Shown piece by piece: positions 1 to 59,514 of a stretch of 64,000 nt of DNA. Both the position numbers and the translations under genes were made by a program. The DNA comes from an uncultured SAR86 cluster bacterium (lineage in GTDB: Bacteria > Pseudomonadota > Gammaproteobacteria > Magnimaribacterales > AG-339-G14): positions 1 to 64,000 of the forward strand of contig CABZES010000006.1 of the NCBI GenBank assembly GCA_902524805.1, read 5' to 3'. Every line of letters begins with the position of its first letter. Within the stretch, counting starts at the first letter, position 1. Below the pieces are notes generated by a model. It searched no databases. It saw nothing but the letters and a program-made list of their open reading frames with translations, and had not been told where the DNA came from.

Positions 1-990
1 AAAAAATTAGCAATCATAGGAGCTTCTGGAGCAGTCGGTAGAGTCTTTCTTGAATTATTAGATGAAATGTATCCAGGTAATAAAAATCTATTCCCTGTTG
101 CAAGTAGGAGATCGGCAGGTAATTCAATTAATTGCGGAAAGCAAGAATTTATAATAGAGGATATCGAAAATTTTGATTTTTCAAAAGTTGATATTGCTTT
201 CTTCTCTGCTGGTGCAGATACGGCAAAAAAATATGCTCCGATCGCTGTTTCTCAGGGATGTAGTGTCATAGATAATTCCTCACAATTTAGAACTGATGTT
301 GAGAAACTTCTTATAGTCCCGGAAGTTAATGCCCAAGACCTTAAAAATTTTAAATCTCCTGGAATTATTTCTAATCCAAACTGTTCTACAGCCCAATTGG
401 TGGTTGCTTTAAAGCCAATTGATGATTTATTTCAAATTGAACGAGTAGATGTTGCTTCTTATCAATCTGTTTCTGGAACTGGAAAAGAAGGAATTGACGA
501 ATTAATTCAACAAACTAAAAATTTTTTAGATAATGAAGAAATTAGTCCAAAAGTCTATGGTGCCCAAATTGCATTTAACGTAATTCCTGCAGGAGATATT
601 CTAGAAAATAACTATACTAACGAAGAAATGAAAATGAGTTTCGAAACTAATAAAATTTTAAGCAAAGATATTAAACTTTCAGCTTCTTGCGTAAGAGTCC
701 CAGTCCTTTACGGACATTCTCTTGCCGTTCACGTCGAGACAAAAAAAGAAATAGAACTAGACCTTCTTATATCTCAAATAAAAAATCAAAAAGGTTTAGA
801 TTATTTCGATCCTAAAGATTTTATTTCACCCAATGTTGTTGATCATGCCGAAGGAAAAAATCCTGTTTCTGTTGGCAGGCTAAGATTAGATTTATGGAAT
901 AGTAATAGAGTAAATTTTTGGGTTGTTGCAGACAATCTTCGAAAAGGCGCTGCTTTAAACAGTCTTCAAATATTAGATGAACTTTTATAG
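1..990 (+). CDS. asd: Aspartate-semialdehyde dehydrogenase, 5' end missing
   Basis: The enzyme reduces aspartyl-phosphate to aspartate semialdehyde with NADPH in the cytoplasm, feeding lysine/diaminopimelate, threonine and methionine synthesis. The frame is open from base 1 and begins with the N-terminal Rossmann motif (AIIGASGAVGR), so only the start codon and perhaps a residue or two lie outside the window; the ATG at 67 is internal. The catalytic cysteine is in SNPNCSTAQ (about residue 128 of the visible part), and the C-terminus has the family's DNLRKGAALN motif. About 329 residues are visible, close to full length. It overlaps the next gene by 14 bp, as in the usual gammaproteobacterial asd-fimV-truA order. 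Confidence 0.96.
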   Translation, partial: KKLAIIGASGAVGRVFLELLDEMYPGNKNLFPVASRRSAGNSINCGKQEFIIEDIENFDFSKVDIAFFSAGADTAKKYAPIAVSQGCSVIDNSSQFRTDVEKLLIVPEVNAQDLKNFKSPGIISNPNCSTAQLVVALKPIDDLFQIERVDVASYQSVSGTGKEGIDELIQQTKNFLDNEEISPKVYGAQIAFNVIPAGDILENNYTNEEMKMSFETNKILSKDIKLSASCVRVPVLYGHSLAVHVETKKEIELDLLISQIKNQKGLDYFDPKDFISPNVVDHAEGKNPVSVGRLRLDLWNSNRVNFWVVADNLRKGAALNSLQILDELL

Positions 991-2101
991 AAATTACAAA
1001 CTGTATTTATTGGCTCTTTTCCTTCTATATGGAAATTTAATAATTTCAGAAGATAATCGAGAAATAAATACTGACGAATACAATAATCTTTGGTCGATTG
1101 GAATAGAGCTAAAAGAAATATATATCGAGTATTCAGTTTATCAAATAATGATATCTTTATTAGAGCTAAATGAATCGGCTTTTGAAAACGAAAATATTAA
1201 TTATTTAAAAAAAGGATATTTTTTAAATCTTCCAGAGGAAAAGGATTTAGAAAAGTTAGAAGCTTTAAGTTCTGTAAGAGAGGTAGCTAAACAAAATTTA
1301 GCCGCAAATGTAGGACCAATAGATTTTAGTGTTTTAGTAGATGTATTAGTTTTATCTGAACCAACATTTTTATTATCTGAAGAGGATGAAGATACTTCTT
1401 TGATTCTTGATGAGATCGACTTAGTAAGTACTGAACAATCTTTAAATAATAATAAAAAAAGTTTAATTACTTATTCTGTAACAGACGATCCAAATTTAGA
1501 TACCTCTGAAAAAATAATAGTAGTGAATCTTTCGGGAAGAAGAGATGAAGATATAGCCAATGAAGTTAAAGTTGAAGATTCTTCTTTAACTTCTGTTGAG
1601 ATTAATGCAGTGGATGGTGATGAATTATTAATTGATTTTGTTGAGCCTGAGATGGCATTAAACGAAAATAAGGACGCAACAGATTTTGAAGAGAATAATG
1701 TCCAAATAAAACCTATAGATATTCCAGAATTTGAAATTGGCTCTAATGAATTATCAACAATAGAAAAAAACTTTGAAAAAATCCCTAACAGGCACTTTTT
1801 AAATACAGAATTTTACTTACTTATTGGTTTTATTCTTCTTTTAGCTTTTTTATTAATATTAAGAAATAGGCCAGCTAAAAATGAAACTAAGACCTTAAAA
1901 AATGATGAAGAATTAAAAAATGATCTAGATGAAGAATTTGGTGAAATAGGAGATCCTATTGAAGCTAGAATTAATCTAGCTATAACTTACATCGAGATGA
2001 ACCAAACAGATAAGGCTAATGATCTTTTGTCTCAAGTTTTGGAGTCTGAAGCAACAGAAAGTCAAAAAGAAAAAGCTCGGAAATTAATAAAAGAAATTTA
2101 G
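977..2101 (+). CDS. fimV: FimV-like inner-membrane protein with chimeric linker
   Basis: This is a short FimV/TspA-type protein (374 residues; well-studied FimV proteins are far longer). Seen: a hydrophobic N-terminus (about 8-24), a periplasmic FimV N-terminal domain (NLWSIGIEL ... NINYLKKGYFLNLP, about 37-88), a long acidic linker, one transmembrane helix (about 278-296), and the cytoplasmic TPR-like FimV C-terminal domain (DPIEARINLAITYIEMNQ to the end). In known systems FimV organises polar or envelope machinery; the role here is inferred. Residues about 155-204 of the linker are not ordinary FimV sequence: they match TrpA residues 10-37 and then the last 27 residues of TrpB. It lies between asd and truA, 4 bp before truA. 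Confidence 0.85.
   Translation: MNFYRNYKLYLLALFLLYGNLIISEDNREINTDEYNNLWSIGIELKEIYIEYSVYQIMISLLELNESAFENENINYLKKGYFLNLPEEKDLEKLEALSSVREVAKQNLAANVGPIDFSVLVDVLVLSEPTFLLSEEDEDTSLILDEIDLVSTEQSLNNNKKSLITYSVTDDPNLDTSEKIIVVNLSGRRDEDIANEVKVEDSSLTSVEINAVDGDELLIDFVEPEMALNENKDATDFEENNVQIKPIDIPEFEIGSNELSTIEKNFEKIPNRHFLNTEFYLLIGFILLLAFLLILRNRPAKNETKTLKNDEELKNDLDEEFGEIGDPIEARINLAITYIEMNQTDKANDLLSQVLESEATESQKEKARKLIKEI
1439..1588 (+). repeat. trpA/trpB-derived chimeric segment inside fimV
   Basis: Bases 1439-1518 align with trpA 4743-4825 (one codon shorter); the gap-free part 1463-1518 matches 4770-4825 at 49 of 56 bases by my count. Bases 1508-1588 align gap-free with trpB 4636-4716 at 68 of 81 bases. The two alignments overlap on gaaaaaataat, which occurs as gaaaaaataat in trpA and gaagaaataat in trpB. 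All three genes are read in the same frame, so the peptides match too (LITYSV.DDP.LD.SEKII, then IIVVNLSGR). The trpB-like part ends exactly at the last sense codon of trpB. The order (trpA then trpB) is the reverse of the donor operon. Confidence 0.88.
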
Positions 2102-2105
2102 TTTC

Positions 2106-2900
2106 ATGAAAAGATTTGCTGCTAGTATTGAGTACTATGGAACAAACTACAGTGGCTGGCAGAAACAAAAACAAACTTCAGACACTATTCAAGAAAAGGT
2201 TGAAAATGCTTTTTCATCTATTGCTAACGAAGAAGTTAATGTGGTTTGCTCAGGAAGAACTGACGCTGGAGTTCATGCCTTATCACAAGTAATTCATTTT
2301 GATACTAATGCAAAAAGGCTAAAAAAATCCTGGGTTGAAGGTTCTAACTCATTACTGCCGAATGATATATCAATCAATTGGATTAAAAGTGTTGATGATA
2401 CGTTTAATGCAAGATTTTCGGCAGTTAGCAGAACATACAAATATGTTGTTTTTAATAAAACTTCTAGCTCAATAATTCACTCCAATAGAGCAACTATTGT
2501 TAAAGAAAAACTAGATATTGATATTATGATTAAAGCCTCAAGATTTTTGCTGGGAGAAAAAGATTTTTCTTCTTTTAGAGCATCCGGATGTCAATCTAAA
2601 ACGCCAATTCGTAATGTTAGAGATATAAAAATTACTAAGAAAAAAAATACTATTACCTTTGAGATCTCTGCAAATGCTTTTTTATTTAATATGGTGAGAA
2701 TTATAATGGGTACGTTGATTAATTTTGGTATAAACAAATTAGATCCTAAGTTGATGAAAGAAATTTTAGATGCAAAAGATAGGAAAGAGGCATCAAAAAC
2801 TTTTGATTCATCTGGCTTATACTTTATTGGCCCTGAATATCCTATGGCTTTTAAGTTACCTAATCCTCCAACTAGAAGACAGGTAGTGCCTTATATTTAA
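2106..2900 (+). CDS. truA: tRNA pseudouridine(38-40) synthase TruA
   Basis: It converts uridines 38-40 in the anticodon arm of many tRNAs to pseudouridine. At 264 residues it has the usual length. The catalytic aspartate is D53 in SGRTDAGVHA, the signature of the family, and FNARFSA and AFLFNMVRI are further conserved segments. The start is ATG, 4 bp after the preceding stop, and the stop abuts the ATG of trpF. This gene between fimV and trpF is standard gammaproteobacterial synteny. Confidence 0.96.
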   Translation: MKRFAASIEYYGTNYSGWQKQKQTSDTIQEKVENAFSSIANEEVNVVCSGRTDAGVHALSQVIHFDTNAKRLKKSWVEGSNSLLPNDISINWIKSVDDTFNARFSAVSRTYKYVVFNKTSSSIIHSNRATIVKEKLDIDIMIKASRFLLGEKDFSSFRASGCQSKTPIRNVRDIKITKKKNTITFEISANAFLFNMVRIIMGTLINFGINKLDPKLMKEILDAKDRKEASKTFDSSGLYFIGPEYPMAFKLPNPPTRRQVVPYI

Positions 2901-3521
2901 ATGAGTATTTTTATAAAAATTTGTGGAATTACTAATCTTGAGGATGCAAAATTTAGTATTAACGATGGTGCAGACGCTATAGGGTTTATTCAAAGCAAAA
3001 AAAGTGAAAGATTTGTATCTTTAGAAACTTTGAATGTCATTAAAGATGCTATCGGTATTGATTTTTTAACTATTCCAGTTTTTGTAAACCCTTCATCAGA
3101 AGAGGTAGTAAATTTCTTAAGTATTTTTCCTAACAGTATCCTTCAATTTCACGGAGACGAAGAAGAAGAATTTTGCAAAGCATTTAATAAACCCTATATA
3201 AAGGCTATAAATGTCTCCAAACAAGAAGATTTAATAAATGATTTAAATAGATATAAGGATTCTTTTGCTTATTTGCTTGATTCAGGCGATTCCCAAAATA
3301 GAGGTGGAACAGGAGAAACTTTTGATTGGAAGCTTATACCTAAAGACCTTTCTAATAAAATAATTGTTGCCGGCGGCTTGGATTCAAATAATATTGAGGT
3401 ATTGTTATCTGAGGTTTCTCCATTTGGTGTTGACGTAAGTAGTGGCGTTGAAAGCAAAATTGGAGTAAAAGATCATTCAAAAATAGATAATTTTATAAAA
3501 TTGGTAAAAAAATATGGATAA
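2901..3521 (+). CDS. trpF: Phosphoribosylanthranilate isomerase
   Basis: It catalyses the Amadori rearrangement of N-(5'-phosphoribosyl)anthranilate to CdRP, the third step of tryptophan synthesis. It is a single TIM barrel of 206 residues. The catalytic cysteine is in KICGIT (residues 7-12), the catalytic aspartate in LLDSG, followed by the phosphate-binding [13 protein letters not shown] and VDVSSGVE segments. The ATG directly follows the truA stop and the gene overlaps trpB by 8 bp, so trpFBA is probably translated in a coupled way. It is a stand-alone TrpF, not fused to TrpC. Confidence 0.96.
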
Positions 3522-4719
3522 AGAAAATTATGATTTTCCTGATAAAGACGGAAGATTCGGAGACTTTGGAGGAAAGTATGTCTCTGAGACTCTTATTTCA
3601 GCATTAGATCAATTAGAAGAGACTTACAATAAAATAAAAAAGGATAAAGCTTTTTTAAAAGAAGTAAAAAACGATCTTGAAACCTTCGTTGGCAGACCCT
3701 CGCCACTATATTTTGCACAAAGGTGGACAGAAAATTTAGGCGGTGCAAAAATTTACCTTAAAAGAGAGGATTTAAACCATACAGGTGCACACAAAATTAA
3801 CAATACTGTTGGACAGGTGCTTTTAGCAAAAAAAATGGGTAAAAAAAGAATAATTGCTGAGACTGGTGCTGGTCAGCACGGAGTTGCAACTGCAGCAGTG
3901 GCGGCAAGGCACGGTTTAGAATGTGTCATTTTTATGGGGGAAGAAGATATAGAAAGACAATCTCCAAATGTTTATCGTATGAAACTTCTTGGGGCTAAAG
4001 TATGCGCGGTTGATTCAGGGACAAAAACTCTCAAAGATGCAATGAACGAAGCTATGAGAGATTGGGTTACAAATGTAGATGACACACATTATATAATTGG
4101 AAGTGTTGCCGGACCTCATCCATATCCTCAAATTGTAAGAGACTTCAATTCTATAGTTGGGATTGAATTAAAAGACCAAGCAAGAGAAGTCTTCGGTAGA
4201 TACCCAGATAAAATTATTGCTTGTGTAGGTGGTGGCTCAAATGCGATGGGAATTTTTTATCCTTTTCTAAAAGATAATTCGGTTGATTTAATAGGAGTAG
4301 AAGCTGGTGGTTCAGGTGTAAAATCAGGAAAGCATGCTGCTCCACTAAGCGATGGAAGTGTTGGTGTTCTTCATGGAATGAAAACATACTTAATGCAAGA
4401 CGATGGAGGACAAATTTTATCAACACACTCTGTTTCTGCAGGATTAGATTACCCAGGTGTTGGACCAGAACACTCTTACTTGAGAGATTCTGGAAGGGTA
4501 GTCTATGAGTCAGCAACTGATGATGAGGCGTTAGACGGTTTTCATGATTTAACGAAGACTGAAGGAATTATGCCTGCTCTTGAAACAGCTCATGCATTAG
4601 CTTTTGCAAAGAAAATTGCTCCTAATTTAGATAAAGAAGAAATAATAGTAGTAAATCTTTCGGGAAGAGGAGATAAAGACATGGCCAATGTAGCAAAAGT
4701 TGAAGGTCTTTCTTTGTGA
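3514..4719 (+). CDS. trpB: Tryptophan synthase beta chain
   Basis: It condenses indole, channelled from TrpA, with serine to make tryptophan, using PLP. The protein has 401 residues, the usual length. The PLP lysine is K94 in [28 protein letters not shown] and the phosphate-binding CVGGGSNA are all present. Its last 27 codons (4636-4716) are the donor-like sequence for the 3' half of the chimeric segment in fimV. It overlaps trpF by 8 bp and trpA by 4 bp (GTGA). Confidence 0.97.
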
Positions 4720-4825
4720 ATAATATTGAAAAAGTTTTTGAATCTTTAAAAAAGAATAATAGAAAAGCTTTAATTACTTATTCCGTTGCAGGCGATCCAG
4801 ATTTAGATTCTTCTGAAAAAATAAT
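4636..4825 (+). repeat. trpB/trpA junction, counterpart of the fimV segment
   Basis: This stretch spans the last 27 codons of trpB and the first 36 or so codons of trpA. It is flanked by an imperfect direct repeat: gaagaaataat at 4636-4646 and gaaaaaataat at 4815-4825 (10 of 11 identical, 179 bp apart). The copy in fimV contains the part after the junction first and the part before it second, fused through this same 11-mer. The bases around the trpB stop and trpA start (about 4717-4742) are absent or too diverged to recognise in fimV. Confidence 0.8.
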
Positions 4826-12165: not shown

Positions 12166-12194
12166 AAAATTTTAAAAAAAATGTATTATAAACT

Positions 12195-12659
12195 ATGTCT
12201 ATGGCTAAAAGAACTAGGACCCCTTGTGTTGGGATATGCTCAACTACCTACGGTGATGATGTTTGTAGAGGATGTAAACGATTTGCGCAAGAAATCATAA
12301 ACTGGAATAGTTTTTCTCCAGATGAAAGAGAAGCAGTTTGGCTAAGATTAGAAAAGTTAAAAACTCAAATTATGGAACCTAGAGTTGAGATATTTGATCC
12401 ATTAAAATTATCTAATGGGATTAAGGAATATCAATTAAGAATACACGAAGATTTAAATAATCTTTGTAAGGCGTTCGAGTTAGTCAAACTTACGAGCAAA
12501 AGTTTTAAAGATTTGAATGGATTCGGTATAACAATAACCTCGCCTATAAAAGATTTAGAAATATTGAAACAAGACATAGAAAAGGAGCTTTATGAGCTCT
12601 CTATGGCACATCATAATAGATATTTTATTGAACCAAAAAATTATAAGGAGATTAAGTAA
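12195..12659 (+). CDS. DUF1289 protein with C-terminal extension
   Basis: The N-terminal 50 residues are a DUF1289 module with four cysteines (TPCVGIC ... DVCRGCKR, then INWNSFSPDEREAVW); the spacing suggests a metal or Fe-S site, but the biochemical role of this family is not established. About 100 further residues have no motif I recognise and are longer than a minimal DUF1289 protein. Two starts are possible, ATG 12195 and ATG 12201. The stop overlaps the ATG of the flavoprotein gene (TAATG), so the two are probably coupled. Confidence 0.75.
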   Translation: MSMAKRTRTPCVGICSTTYGDDVCRGCKRFAQEIINWNSFSPDEREAVWLRLEKLKTQIMEPRVEIFDPLKLSNGIKEYQLRIHEDLNNLCKAFELVKLTSKSFKDLNGFGITITSPIKDLEILKQDIEKELYELSMAHHNRYFIEPKNYKEIK

Positions 12660-13969
12660 TGGAAGATATTTTAAATTCGAAGTTAATCTTGCCTTGTGGC
12701 AAAACGTTAAAAAATAGAATTTGTAAATCTGCTCTCACTGAAAGAATCGCTGAGGGTAACAATTTAGTTAACCAGAAGCATTTAAATTTATATGAAAAAT
12801 GGGCTGAAGGAGATGTTGGTACAGTTCTTACTGGCAACGTCCAAGTTGATAAAAGGTATTTAGAATCTGCAGGAAATGTTGCCATAGAGAAAAGCAATTA
12901 TAAAGACCAGATAGACCTATTAAGAAAATGGACTGAAGTTGGCACAAAAAATAATACTAATTTGTGGATGCAAATTAGTCATGCTGGTCGACAAACTCCA
13001 GGCGATTTAAATATGAAACCAGTAGCACCTTCTGACGTTGGTCTAAAAATACCAGGAAGAAAATATGGTACGCCCAAACCTTTAACAAAAGAAGAAATTG
13101 AAGATGTTATTGAAAGATTTATATTCACAGCAAAGGTTGCTCAAGATACGGGTTTTACTGGTATTCAAATTCATTCTGCTCATGGATATTTAATGTCAGA
13201 GTTTCTATCTCCTGATATTAATAAAAGAAATGATGAGTGGGGTGGGTCTTTAGAAAATAGGTCCAGGATATTATTGCGAATTATTAATGGCTGTAGAGAA
13301 GCTTTGGGAGATGATTATCCAATTTCAGTTAAATTAAATTCGGCTGATTTTCAAAAAGGTGGCTTTTCAGCTGAAGATTCATCAAAAGTAGCATCAATGT
13401 TGAGTGACGCAAAAATAGATTTATTAGAAATTTCAGGCGGTACTTATGAACAACCAAGACTTCTTGGCTTAGATACAGTTAGCATTAACCCAAAGAGAAG
13501 TGAAACAAGAAAAGAAAGTACGATAGCTAGAGAAGCATATTTTTTGGCCTATACAGAAGAAATTAAAAAGGTAATTGATATTCCGCTTATGGTAACCGGA
13601 GGGTTTAGGTCTAGATTAGCAATGGAAACAGCCATCAATCAGGGTGCATGTGAAATCGTTGGAATAGGAAGACCGTTGTGTTCAGATCCCATGTCAGTAA
13701 AAAAATTATTAGATAGATCAATAGATGTTTTGCCAACATTTGAAAAAACACTGTCAATAGGTCCGGGATGGTTATCTCAAAGAAGTCCATTTAGATTAAT
13801 TCAGGCATTGAACGCTTTTGGGATTCAATCTTGGTATTATTCACAAATAAGAAGAATTTCTGAAGGGTTGTCACCTGATTTATCTTTAAATCCATTTAAG
13901 GCTTTTAGAAGCGATGGTAAAATAGATAAAGAGACAGTTAAAGCATATAAACTCTATAATAAATCATAG
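12659..13969 (+). CDS. Old Yellow Enzyme family NADH:flavin oxidoreductase
   Basis: This FMN-dependent TIM-barrel oxidoreductase is of the OYE/NADH oxidase type. Seen: the N-terminal segment LKNRICKSALTE, the flavin/substrate motif WMQISHAGRQ, GIQIHSAHGYLMSEFLSP, NKRNDEWGGSLENRSRILL, and the phosphate-binding VTGGFRS ... GIGRPLCSDP. The family reduces activated C=C bonds in enones or related compounds; the substrate here cannot be read from sequence. It is 436 residues without the C-terminal Fe-S/Rossmann domains of dienoyl-CoA reductase. It follows the DUF1289 gene and precedes the hydroxylase by 9 bp. Confidence 0.88.
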   Translation: MEDILNSKLILPCGKTLKNRICKSALTERIAEGNNLVNQKHLNLYEKWAEGDVGTVLTGNVQVDKRYLESAGNVAIEKSNYKDQIDLLRKWTEVGTKNNTNLWMQISHAGRQTPGDLNMKPVAPSDVGLKIPGRKYGTPKPLTKEEIEDVIERFIFTAKVAQDTGFTGIQIHSAHGYLMSEFLSPDINKRNDEWGGSLENRSRILLRIINGCREALGDDYPISVKLNSADFQKGGFSAEDSSKVASMLSDAKIDLLEISGGTYEQPRLLGLDTVSINPKRSETRKESTIAREAYFLAYTEEIKKVIDIPLMVTGGFRSRLAMETAINQGACEIVGIGRPLCSDPMSVKKLLDRSIDVLPTFEKTLSIGPGWLSQRSPFRLIQALNAFGIQSWYYSQIRRISEGLSPDLSLNPFKAFRSDGKIDKETVKAYKLYNKS

Positions 13970-42624: not shown

Positions 42625-44049
42625 ATGAGTACTGAAAAAATACCTTTTTTAACTAAGTTTCTGTATGGATTTGGATCTATGTCTTATGGAATCAAAGATA
42701 ATGCTTTCGCATATTTTTTACTTTTTGTTTATGTCCAAATTTTTGGTTTAGCACCAGACTTAGCGGGATTAGCGATTCTTTTGATGTTAGTTTTTGATGC
42801 ATTTTCTGATCCTTTAGTAGGATATTTTTCAGATCGCCATAGATCTTCTTGGGGCAGAAGACATCCTTTTATGTATTTTTCTGCAATTCCTGTCAGTTTG
42901 TCATTCTTTCTTCTATGGGATCCTCCAGATGCACTTTCTCAAATGCAGTTATTTTTCTATCTATTAGCCATAGGAGTTTTTATAAGAACTGCAATAACAT
43001 TTTATGAAATTCCTAGTACAGCATTAGGGCCAGAATTATCTAAAGATTATGTTGAAAGAAGTTCTTTGCTCTCTTATAGATACTGGTTTGGATGGTGGGG
43101 AGGGTTATTAGTTTGGAACTCTCTATGGATTTTTGTAGTTTATAGCAGCTACACAGGAACTACAGACGCAAGATATCTTCCAGAAACTTGGAAAATTTAC
43201 GGACTGGTTTGTAGTTTAGTTATGTTCATTGCGATTATGGTTACTGCTCTAGGAACTCATAAACATATAAAAGATCTTCATTCTCCTGAAATTAAAAAGA
43301 TTTCAATCAAAAAGACTTTAGCTGAATTATGGGAAACTATAACTGTAAGTAGAGATTATCTGGTTTTATTTTTGGCAATGATTATTACGAGTATAGCCTC
43401 AGGAATTGCTACTAATTTAACATTATTCTTCTATAGCTATTTTTGGGAATTTACACCTCTTAACATTCTTACAATTGGATTAACGTTATTTTTAACACCT
43501 TTAATTGGCTTAAAAGTATCACCTTTTTTAGCAGCTACTTTAGGAAAAAGAAAGACCATAATTTATTTATTTGCAATAGCATTTATAGCTGAAAATTTAA
43601 TTATTTTGATGAGGATTTTAAATATACTTCCCGGAAATGATTCTGTTTTCATTTTACCACTTGTTCTTATTTTTCACTGGATTGCAATTAGTGCTCAAAT
43701 AATTTCATATACTAATCTAGCTTCGATGGTATTTGACACAGTTGAAGAGGTTGAAAAATTAACTGGAAGAAGAATGGAAGGTACATTACTAGCAGCAAGA
43801 TCTTTTGCAGCAAAATGTATGAGTGGAGCAGGAGCGTTTTTAGCAGGATTAATTCTTTCTTATGCAGCTTGGCCTAAAGGAGCAGTTGCTGGAGAAGTAG
43901 AATCTAGCATCTTGAATAGTGTGGGATTATTTGCAATTTCTATTTCGGCAGTTTTATGGCTGTCTGCCATATTTGTTTTTTCTAAAGTTAAAATGACAAG
44001 AGCTAGTCATGAAGACAATTTGGGAGAGTTGAACTATTCAAATGATTAA
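42625..44049 (+). CDS. MFS transporter, GPH type (second copy)
   Basis: A 474-residue, 12-helix transporter, paralogous to the one at 38134: DAFSDPLVGYFSDRHRSSWGRRHPFMYF and EIPSTALGPELSKDYVERSS align with it over the whole N-terminal half. It follows DUF3604 by 5 bp and overlaps bolA by 8 bp. Substrate unknown; the location next to DUF3604 is the best clue. Confidence 0.86.
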   Translation: MSTEKIPFLTKFLYGFGSMSYGIKDNAFAYFLLFVYVQIFGLAPDLAGLAILLMLVFDAFSDPLVGYFSDRHRSSWGRRHPFMYFSAIPVSLSFFLLWDPPDALSQMQLFFYLLAIGVFIRTAITFYEIPSTALGPELSKDYVERSSLLSYRYWFGWWGGLLVWNSLWIFVVYSSYTGTTDARYLPETWKIYGLVCSLVMFIAIMVTALGTHKHIKDLHSPEIKKISIKKTLAELWETITVSRDYLVLFLAMIITSIASGIATNLTLFFYSYFWEFTPLNILTIGLTLFLTPLIGLKVSPFLAATLGKRKTIIYLFAIAFIAENLIILMRILNILPGNDSVFILPLVLIFHWIAISAQIISYTNLASMVFDTVEEVEKLTGRRMEGTLLAARSFAAKCMSGAGAFLAGLILSYAAWPKGAVAGEVESSILNSVGLFAISISAVLWLSAIFVFSKVKMTRASHEDNLGELNYSND

Positions 44050-44350
44050 AGAGCAAATTGAAAACAAATTAGAAAAGGATTTAGAACCCTGGCATTTAGA
44101 AGTCATTAATGAATCTCCAAATCACAACGTGCCAAATGGAGCAGAATCACATTTTAAAATTGTTATAGTTTCAGAAAAATTTTTGGATATTCGAGCTGTA
44201 AGAAGACATCAATTAATTTATTCTGTTCTAGCTGAAGAAATGAAAAAAATTCATGCCATCGCTATGCATCCTTTCACTCCAGAGGAATGGAAAGACAAAA
44301 CAGGCAATGAACTGAACTCTCCTGAATGTCTTGGTGGAGGAAATGATTGA
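44042..44350 (+). CDS. bolA: BolA family protein
   Basis: A 102-residue BolA: ESPNHNVPNGAESHFKIVIVSEKF and RRHQLIYSVLAEEM are close to E. coli BolA. BolA works with monothiol glutaredoxins in Fe-S cluster handling and also as a transcriptional/morphology regulator. It overlaps the transporter before it and the trhO gene after it (about 8 bp). Confidence 0.93.
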   Translation: MIKEQIENKLEKDLEPWHLEVINESPNHNVPNGAESHFKIVIVSEKFLDIRAVRRHQLIYSVLAEEMKKIHAIAMHPFTPEEWKDKTGNELNSPECLGGGND

Positions 44351-58656: not shown

Positions 58657-59085
58657 ATGAGTACAGATATATTTATACCAATCTATTACATGTTAGGTTT
58701 AACATCTTTGGTTTTTTTATTTTATACAGCTATTAGGATCTTGGATGTAGCTGTTTATAAAAAACATAGTGCAGAAGATTTAATGACAATTCCCACTCCC
58801 GGAAATGCGAGTAACTTGATAAGGCAGGCGGAAAGAAATTTAGCTAATTTATTCGAATTCCCAGTTTTCTTTTATGTCGTTTGTATCATTATTTATGTAA
58901 CTGGCAAGGCGGACGATAATTTTATTTTACTAGCATATTGGTTTGTTGGTTTTAGATTCATTCATTCTATTTATCACATTTTTTTTAATGGATTTGTTTC
59001 TGTCTTGCCTCTAAGGGCTATGTTTTTTGTTCCAAGTTGGGCAATTTTAGTTTGGATGTGGGTAAGACTAATTTCGTCGTTTTAA
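58657..59085 (+). CDS. MAPEG family membrane protein (first of two)
   Basis: A 142-residue four-helix membrane protein of the MAPEG superfamily (microsomal glutathione transferase-like). RQAERNLANLFEFPVFFYVVCIIIYVTG carries the conserved N...N..E.P motif and RFIHSIYHI is the matching last-helix motif. Bacterial members may bind glutathione or process lipids; function unknown. A GGAGAG ribosome-binding site precedes the ATG. It is followed by a paralogue after 12 bp. Confidence 0.86.
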   Translation: MSTDIFIPIYYMLGLTSLVFLFYTAIRILDVAVYKKHSAEDLMTIPTPGNASNLIRQAERNLANLFEFPVFFYVVCIIIYVTGKADDNFILLAYWFVGFRFIHSIYHIFFNGFVSVLPLRAMFFVPSWAILVWMWVRLISSF

Positions 59086-59097
59086 AAAAAGCTAGTT

Positions 59098-59514
59098 ATG
59101 AATACAGATATTTTATTGCCGATATTTTACTTAGCAATTTTTACTTTTGTAGTTCAAATGGTTCAATCAGTTGTCAGAGGAAGAGCAGTTAGCGAAAACA
59201 AACATACACCTGAGGAGATGTTTGGTATTCCATTACCTCAAAACTCAAGTGATCTTATAAAACGTCTTGATAGAAACCATACTAATTTATTCGAATACAC
59301 CGTCCTTTTTTATGCAGCCTGTATCTCAATTTTTGCTGCTGGTAAAGTAGATGGGCATTTTGTATTGTTGGCAAATGCCTATGTAGTTTTAAGAGTTATT
59401 CACTCTATTTATCATATTTTATCAAATTCCAATTTTGGAATTAGAGCTTTAGTTTGGCTTGGAAGCAATATTGTGATGCTATGGATGTGGTTAAGATTGG
59501 TTATGATGTTTTAG
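59098..59514 (+). CDS. MAPEG family membrane protein (second of two)
   Basis: A 138-residue paralogue of the protein before it, with the same motifs: KRLDRNHTNLFEYTVLFYAACISIF and RVIHSIYHI. The two genes are a tandem duplication that has diverged strongly (for example FPVFF versus YTVLF), so they probably form a hetero-oligomer or have different substrates. It overlaps the convergent YciC-like gene by 14 bp. Confidence 0.85.
   Translation: MNTDILLPIFYLAIFTFVVQMVQSVVRGRAVSENKHTPEEMFGIPLPQNSSDLIKRLDRNHTNLFEYTVLFYAACISIFAAGKVDGHFVLLANAYVVLRVIHSIYHILSNSNFGIRALVWLGSNIVMLWMWLRLVMMF

Follow-up and report, generated by a model that had tools for sequence, protein, structure and literature searches.

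The window analysed here is a stretch of 64,000 nucleotides (64 kb) from a member of the SAR86 cluster, a marine bacterium with a small genome, as the original prediction of a streamlined genome had it. It carries an apparent operon with the gene order fimV-truA-trpF-trpB-trpA, the products of which were assigned to FimV/HubP, TruA, TrpF, TrpB and TrpA by profile search. The two genes that served as donors of the sequence described below, trpB and trpA, are thus in the same apparent operon as the recipient gene, fimV.

977-2101, + strand: fimV/hubP-like gene, encoding a signal peptide-like N-terminus, a LysM-type FimV core, a linker with the insert, a transmembrane helix and a C-terminal TPR domain

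Judged against curated cut-offs, which both matches exceed, the LysM-like FimV core (TIGR03505, residues 38-107, 54.5 bits against a cut-off of 43.45) and the C-terminal FimV TPR domain (TIGR03504, residues 331-374, 38.1 bits against 30.65) are present. The long linker that holds the insert spans approximately residues 126-270 and the transmembrane helix residues 277-296, the signal peptide and this helix being read from the sequence and the model. AlphaFold (whole-model mean pLDDT just 48.6, four sequences) gave pLDDT values below 50 for residues 98-276, and a hydrophobic helix at residues 271-296. FimV/HubP proteins, which are landmarks of the cell pole, characteristically have an extensive acidic cytoplasmic domain after a transmembrane region (PMC12918733). 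Here, only ~30 residues lie between the helix and the C-terminal domain, a much shortened version of that cytoplasmic region. Since the insert sits in the linker that joins the LysM domain to the membrane helix, the modelled topology would probably place it in the periplasm.

The insert consists of ~150 bases copied from two neighbouring genes, with a net gain of 186 bases (62 codons). The order within fimV is left host segment, start of trpA, end of trpB and second host segment, so that the two donors appear in swapped order.

1437-1518, + strand: trpA-derived piece, a copy of 4741-4825 (BLASTN 84.7% over 85 columns, E 4e-18), common to the related genomes G002 and G007
1508-1587, + strand: trpB-derived piece, a copy of 4636-4715, the trpB end without its stop codon (68/80 identical)
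4636-4715, + strand: donor 1, the trpB 3' end, up to the last codon before the stop
4716-4740, + strand: 25 donor bases skipped by the chimera according to the alignments, containing the trpB stop codon and the trpA start
4741-4825, + strand: donor 2, the 5' part of trpA

The original prediction had counted, by eye, 49/56 identical bases between 1463-1518 and trpA 4770-4825 and 68/81 between 1508-1588 and trpB 4636-4716, and both counts were exact on recount. BLASTN extended the trpA homology somewhat to the left of 1463, to 1437 (1437-1518 against 4741-4825, 89.7 bits, E 4e-18), and aligned 1489-1587 with 4620-4715 (99 columns, 81.8%, 96.9 bits, E 3e-20). These two matches are the top two ectopic repeats in a self-comparison of the window, and donor and copy differ by 15%. 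When 1400-1650 was searched against the rest of the genome, nothing was found besides the donors and one 26-bp A/T-rich match on another contig. Pfam returned a pullulanase domain for the insert region (E 0.15), a match that was not meaningful and was set aside. The sequence is low in G+C and the linker is acidic and of low complexity, features on which a chance or convergent likeness of an AT-rich linker to trp genes could draw. However, the best match in 20 Markov-shuffled windows was 48.2 bits, so that shuffles never reached the real scores, and none of the other FimV linkers tested matches its own genome elsewhere. Given the E values and the shuffle control, chance similarity was rejected as wholly improbable. 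Related linkers that lack nucleotide similarity to trp genes also lack the peptide.

Both pieces are read in the frame of their donors, as had been predicted. The other two forward frames of the copied sequence are full of stop codons; retention of the donor frame was therefore largely forced, and does not amount to an additional coincidence.

We examined the genus, which comprises eight genomes, of which five have an assembled fimV (this genome, G000, and G001, G002, G003 and G007) and three do not (G004, G005 and G006). The insert is present in G000, G002 and G007, which are three species, with the same two-part structure, the same trpA/trpB joint (TCTGAAAAAATAATAGTAGT, common to all three) and at the same place. 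The three inserts are 74-85% identical to one another. G001 and G003, both with an intact fimV, lack it. The chimera was not found in the family's remaining 32 genomes, whose FimV loci are without it, and the sister genus, g2, gave matches only through its trp genes. The presence of the same insert in three species bears out the view that this is an ancient, retained capture of neighbouring coding sequence.

The related genomes are SAR86 single-cell genomes (AG-891-K16, AG-914-M02). Multiple displacement amplification (MDA) of single cells makes chimeras at short complementarities (PMC1855051), so an origin of the insert in amplification or in assembly needed to be ruled out. In MDA chimeras, too, the joined sequences lie near each other, with 2-21 nt of complementarity (PMC1855051). 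Such chimeras are, however, undiverged artefacts of one reaction and more than 85% of them are inverted (PMC1855051), whereas the fimV chimera is direct, diverged and found at the same codons in three independent genomes, at 74-85% identity and with a donor-copy difference of 15%. Because the insert is shared with the same joint and has diverged across three species, an artefact was rejected, the chance of one being minimal, in agreement with the original prediction. The sequence comparisons thus indicate that the insert is a real inherited event and not an error of sequencing, amplification or assembly.

The insert was also considered as a mobile or dispersed element. Multiple copies or terminal repeats, such as transposition leaves, were not found: in the genome there are just the donors and the 26-bp A/T-rich match, and the surveyed regions of relatives contain no copies other than the fimV orthologues. 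This possibility was rejected on the grounds that the insert is single-copy. Palindromic elements of Rickettsia are similar in that non-native sequence is inserted in a protein-coding gene of a small-genome bacterium, but they are dispersed mobile repeats (PMC2229807), whereas the fimV insert exists in a single copy and captured sequence of two named host genes. Self-BLAST of the 46-72 kb syntenic regions of five genomes revealed no other ectopic captures, the matches above 52 bits being the fimV chimera, a tandem repeat in the fimV of G007 and pairs resembling paralogous genes. The FimV linkers of G003, G008 and G020, and the remaining linker of this genome (1588-1810), have no match elsewhere in their own genomes, and no relative was found in the viral contigs searched. 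As far as tested, the capture appears to be a one-off rather than a recurrent habit.

The insert is flanked by a 57-bp duplication of host sequence, which is single in the insert-free G001 and G003 and double around the insert. This duplication and the shared sequences at the three joints, like the transfer between species described below, were not part of the original prediction.

1388-1444, + strand: left host copy, EDTSLILDEIDLVSTEQSL, the pre-insertion fimV sequence, present once in G001 and G003; the sequence on either side of the G002 insert aligns to it
1508-1518, + strand: trpA/trpB joint, where GAAAAAATAAT of trpA (4815-4825) overlaps GAAGAAATAAT of trpB (4636-4646), 10/11 bases shared
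1574-1630, + strand: right host copy, EDSSLTSVEINAVDGDELL, exactly 186 bp (62 codons) past the left copy; the trpB piece runs into its first 15 bases

One 58-base stretch of G001 aligns with the sequence to the left of the G002 insert and also with that to its right. The linker is of low complexity, and in a codon-shuffle test the duplication was significant on its own only in G002 (0/2000), the signal being weak in G000 (117/2000) and G007 (149/2000), as is expected of old low-complexity sequence. Short shared sequences were found at all three joints, namely GAATCTTTA at fimV/trpA, GAARAAATAAT at trpA/trpB and GAAGRTNYTTCTTTG at trpB/fimV. Among random joints in the window, shared runs of 7 bases or more occur with P 1.2e-3, runs of 9 or more with P 1.4e-4, and matches of 12/15 or better with P 5e-4. 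Each of the three joints thus has P ~1e-3 or less against random joints; the joints have mutated since the event, so the shared lengths are reconstructions, and the left joint depends on the EESL allele.

The donor alleles carried by the inserts were compared with the trpBA genes of each genome. The G002 chimera matches the trpBA of G000 at 117/138 positions (52/60 + 65/78) and its own at 98/138 (42/60 + 56/78). Likewise, the G007 chimera matches G000 at 112/138 (52/60 + 60/78) and its own trpBA at 95/138 (43/60 + 52/78). Five trpBA sites have a base found in G000 alone, and 4, 4 and 5 of these bases recur in the three chimeras; the G003 base at four sites private to that genome recurs in none of them. 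Where the clade of G001, G002 and G007 differs from both G000 and G003 (11 sites), the chimeras are G000-type at 10, 8 and 8. Since they carry G000-type alleles and no G003-private bases, the donor was G000-like and postdates the split of G000 and G003. The inserts of G002 and G007, two of the three carriers, match the G000-type alleles rather than their own trpBA, which argues that the insert reached them by horizontal exchange. We infer from these alleles that the insert arose in the lineage of this genome, or in a close unsampled relative, and later crossed species by homologous recombination, which gives the likely direction of transfer. Transfer from the clade into G000 was considered and rejected because the chimera carries G000 trpBA alleles.

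A signature of exchange extends beyond the insert.

977-3521, + strand: exchanged tract fimV-truA-trpF, between the G000 lineage and the clade of G001, G002 and G007, with the three lowest synonymous distances of 59 genes and support from trees

Across the window, G000 is about equally far from the clade and from G003, with synonymous differences mostly of 0.6-0.75. For fimV, truA and trpF, the G000-G002 synonymous difference is 0.40-0.52, the three lowest values of 59 genes (P 3e-5), while that between G002 and G007 is normal (0.41-0.44). Only in these three genes do trees put G000 beside the clade with G003 outside, with moderate support (80, 58 and 47 for G000 outside the clade). The history of fimV-truA-trpF differs from that of its neighbours, and the inter-species recombination tract ends near the trpF/trpB boundary. 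Within fimV, 10-17% of same-residue codons differ in the insert and the linker that follows it, whereas the two domains differ at 28-33% (P 0.005, 0.006 and 0.011 by Fisher's test for the three pairs, values that are not independent and come from small counts). The linker before the insert shows no reduced synonymous difference, nor does the linker in comparisons with G003. These codon differences suggest that the linker itself may have been exchanged again, later than the tract. As it was perhaps exchanged again, G001 may either have lost the insert or never have had it.

Elsewhere in the window, two genes at 12192-13969 show G000-G003 synonymous differences of 0.43 and 0.28, compared to ~0.6 nearby, and this is probably a second recombination tract, with the G003 lineage. 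For the two genes at 42625-44350, the G001 orthologues differ from G002 as much as they do from other species (synonymous difference 0.57-0.68, whereas nearly every other gene of the region has 0.05-0.3), a pattern that suggests allele replacement in G001 or a match to a paralogue.

The product is complex, as template switching would leave it, with two donors in swapped order and a 57-bp duplication of the host. The best account, which we hold to be moderately probable, is that a single same-strand template-switching event took place in a SAR86 cell and that inter-species exchange came later, with the altered linker tolerated. Replication or repair synthesis on fimV would have jumped to trpA at the shared GAATCTTTA, copied ~80 bases of trpA, slipped back 179 bases onto the trpB end at GAARAAATAAT and copied ~75 bases there. 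Having left trpB just short of its stop codon, synthesis would then have rejoined fimV at GAAGRTNYTTCTTTG, upstream of its point of exit. This would yield the trpA-trpB chimera followed by a second copy of the 57-base fimV segment, a gain of 186 bases (62 codons), in frame since only the donor frame is free of stops. The event would have taken place in the lineage of this genome or of a close unsampled relative, and homologous recombination would later have carried the altered linker into two other species. The new sequence would then have become part of an unfolded linker, where it was tolerated and drifted towards an acidic and polar composition while two hydrophobic, strand-like islands were kept.

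The structure fits the template switching of the original prediction, but template switching is one of several routes that are indistinguishable from the end product. One of these is stepwise, in which tandem duplications at short repeats join trpA to trpB and trpB to fimV, and a deletion then removes the sequence between fimV and the trpA copy. Tandem duplications of this kind are common in bacteria. All of the pieces lie close together in direct orientation with a short repeat at every joint, a 179-bp tandem duplication would by itself give the trpA-trpB joint, and this route also explains why all three switches are on the same strand within 3.4 kb. It requires, however, two or three independent events and large transient duplications, and no intermediate was seen among the genomes examined. 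We regard it as possible, although improbable. In the other route, a 179-bp circle is excised from trpBA between the GAARAAATAAT repeats (4636-4646 and 4815-4825), opened and integrated at a staggered break in fimV. The chimera corresponds to this 179-bp unit in circularly permuted form, minus only the 25 bases with the stop codon, and a staggered break would yield the flank duplication. Yet integration must lose exactly the stop-codon segment and find shared sequence at two more joints, and no known enzyme is implicated, which makes a circle quite unlikely.

Returning to the favoured template-switching account, we compared the insert with its donors and its surroundings. Between species, the omega of the insert is 0.59-0.68, like that of the linker behind it, compared to 0.05-0.16 for the folded domains in the same pairs. 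Its net charge has changed from +1 to -3 or -4 and its Gly/Ala content from 8 to 1-2, so that it resembles the surrounding acidic linker. Taken with the disorder predicted by the model, this indicates that most of the insert is drifting as disordered, increasingly acidic linker. The suggestion that new protein sequence had arisen therefore stands insofar as coding linker was gained; the gain is of disordered linker only, which evolves mostly as ordinary linker (omega 0.6-0.7) and which G001 does without.

Two parts of the insert depart from this pattern.

1463-1477, + strand: conserved island LITYS, with no amino-acid change between the donor and the three chimeras
1505-1537, + strand: conserved 11-residue island spanning the trpA/trpB joint, with no amino-acid change among the three species

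Together, the islands have zero amino-acid changes in three species and the donor, compared to 12-16 per species in the other 26 codons compared, and the clustering of conserved residues is significant by permutation (P 0.0002-0.003). Synonymous changes in the islands are also few (1-2/12 sites), and for this reason constraint is suggested rather than demonstrated. The same islands could indicate that the insert was selected from the start as a functional addition, such as a new strand pair or a binding motif in the linker, and a low-confidence model draws strands at residues 163-167 and 179-183. Against this, the few synonymous changes may reflect low local mutation or recency, the overall omega is 0.6-0.7, G001 lacks the insert, and the islands were defined after looking at three sequences only. 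We consider such selection unlikely. A further proposal, which we think decidedly doubtful, is that the chimera is a newborn functional element. Two beta-strand cores from the enzyme subunits TrpA and TrpB would have fused into a two-strand motif of a periplasmic linker, kept by purifying selection amid remodelled surroundings and spread by fine-scale recombination for its usefulness.

Microhomology-mediated template switching (FoSTeS/MMBIR) has been described for lac amplification in E. coli and for human copy-number variants (PMC2621351). The fimV insert is similar in its successive switches, the short homology at its joints (2-15 bp in E. coli; 7-11 here), its local templates and its flank duplication (PMC2621351). 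The described cases are recent and of kilobase scale (PMC2621351), whereas the insert is ~150 bp, old, coding, in frame and found in several species. Its process, too, is inferred from the scar only. Template switches in ape genomes are reportedly often accompanied by strand reversal. These short-range mutations resemble the fimV insert as small clustered changes from a nearby template, but they lie within one locus (PMC7954356), whereas the insert is in direct orientation and draws on two templates 3 kb away.

The processes involved are already known (PMC2621351), and a search of the open literature turned up no account of this locus or of a comparable case in bacteria, which is not proof of absence. 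The insert is an instructive natural case and not a new system, and a genuine, well-resolved example in which local template switching, or a duplication-deletion path to the same product, added coding sequence that was then exchanged between species. The origin of added linker sequence in bacteria is rarely traceable. In this case, extant genomes reveal the source of the sequence, its joints, the lineage in which it arose and its passage between species, because the donor genes are still 3 kb away and relatives carry different donor alleles. Switching to a nearby template can thus add dozens of codons to a gene of a small-genome ocean bacterium, and the addition can cross species. The case also offers a way to test for selection on enzyme strands captured by a disordered linker.

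Tandem repeats were observed in other FimV linkers. In the fimV linker of G007 (G007:C2:82675-83994), a 105-bp unit, SSISDEIDLPDNEESLISFDEPDEIVELDQDLESF, is present in three tandem copies that are ~99% identical; the right-hand copy of the host segment, next to the insert, has recently been expanded in this way. Tandem repeats with a unit of ~84 bp, ETSVVPEIAEESVEETSSFSAMAEELVE, also make up the FimV linker of G020 (G020:C2:87908-88303), and G017 has a shorter version; tandem duplication is another route by which linkers of the FimV family grow. After the halves of the chimera, the next-strongest ectopic pair in the window begins at 58844 and 59282. It belongs to two adjacent, apparently paralogous genes of 142 residues (58657-59514), in which 58844-58982 and 59282-59420 match at 70% of nucleotides, and the best G003 match of the first gene is very diverged.
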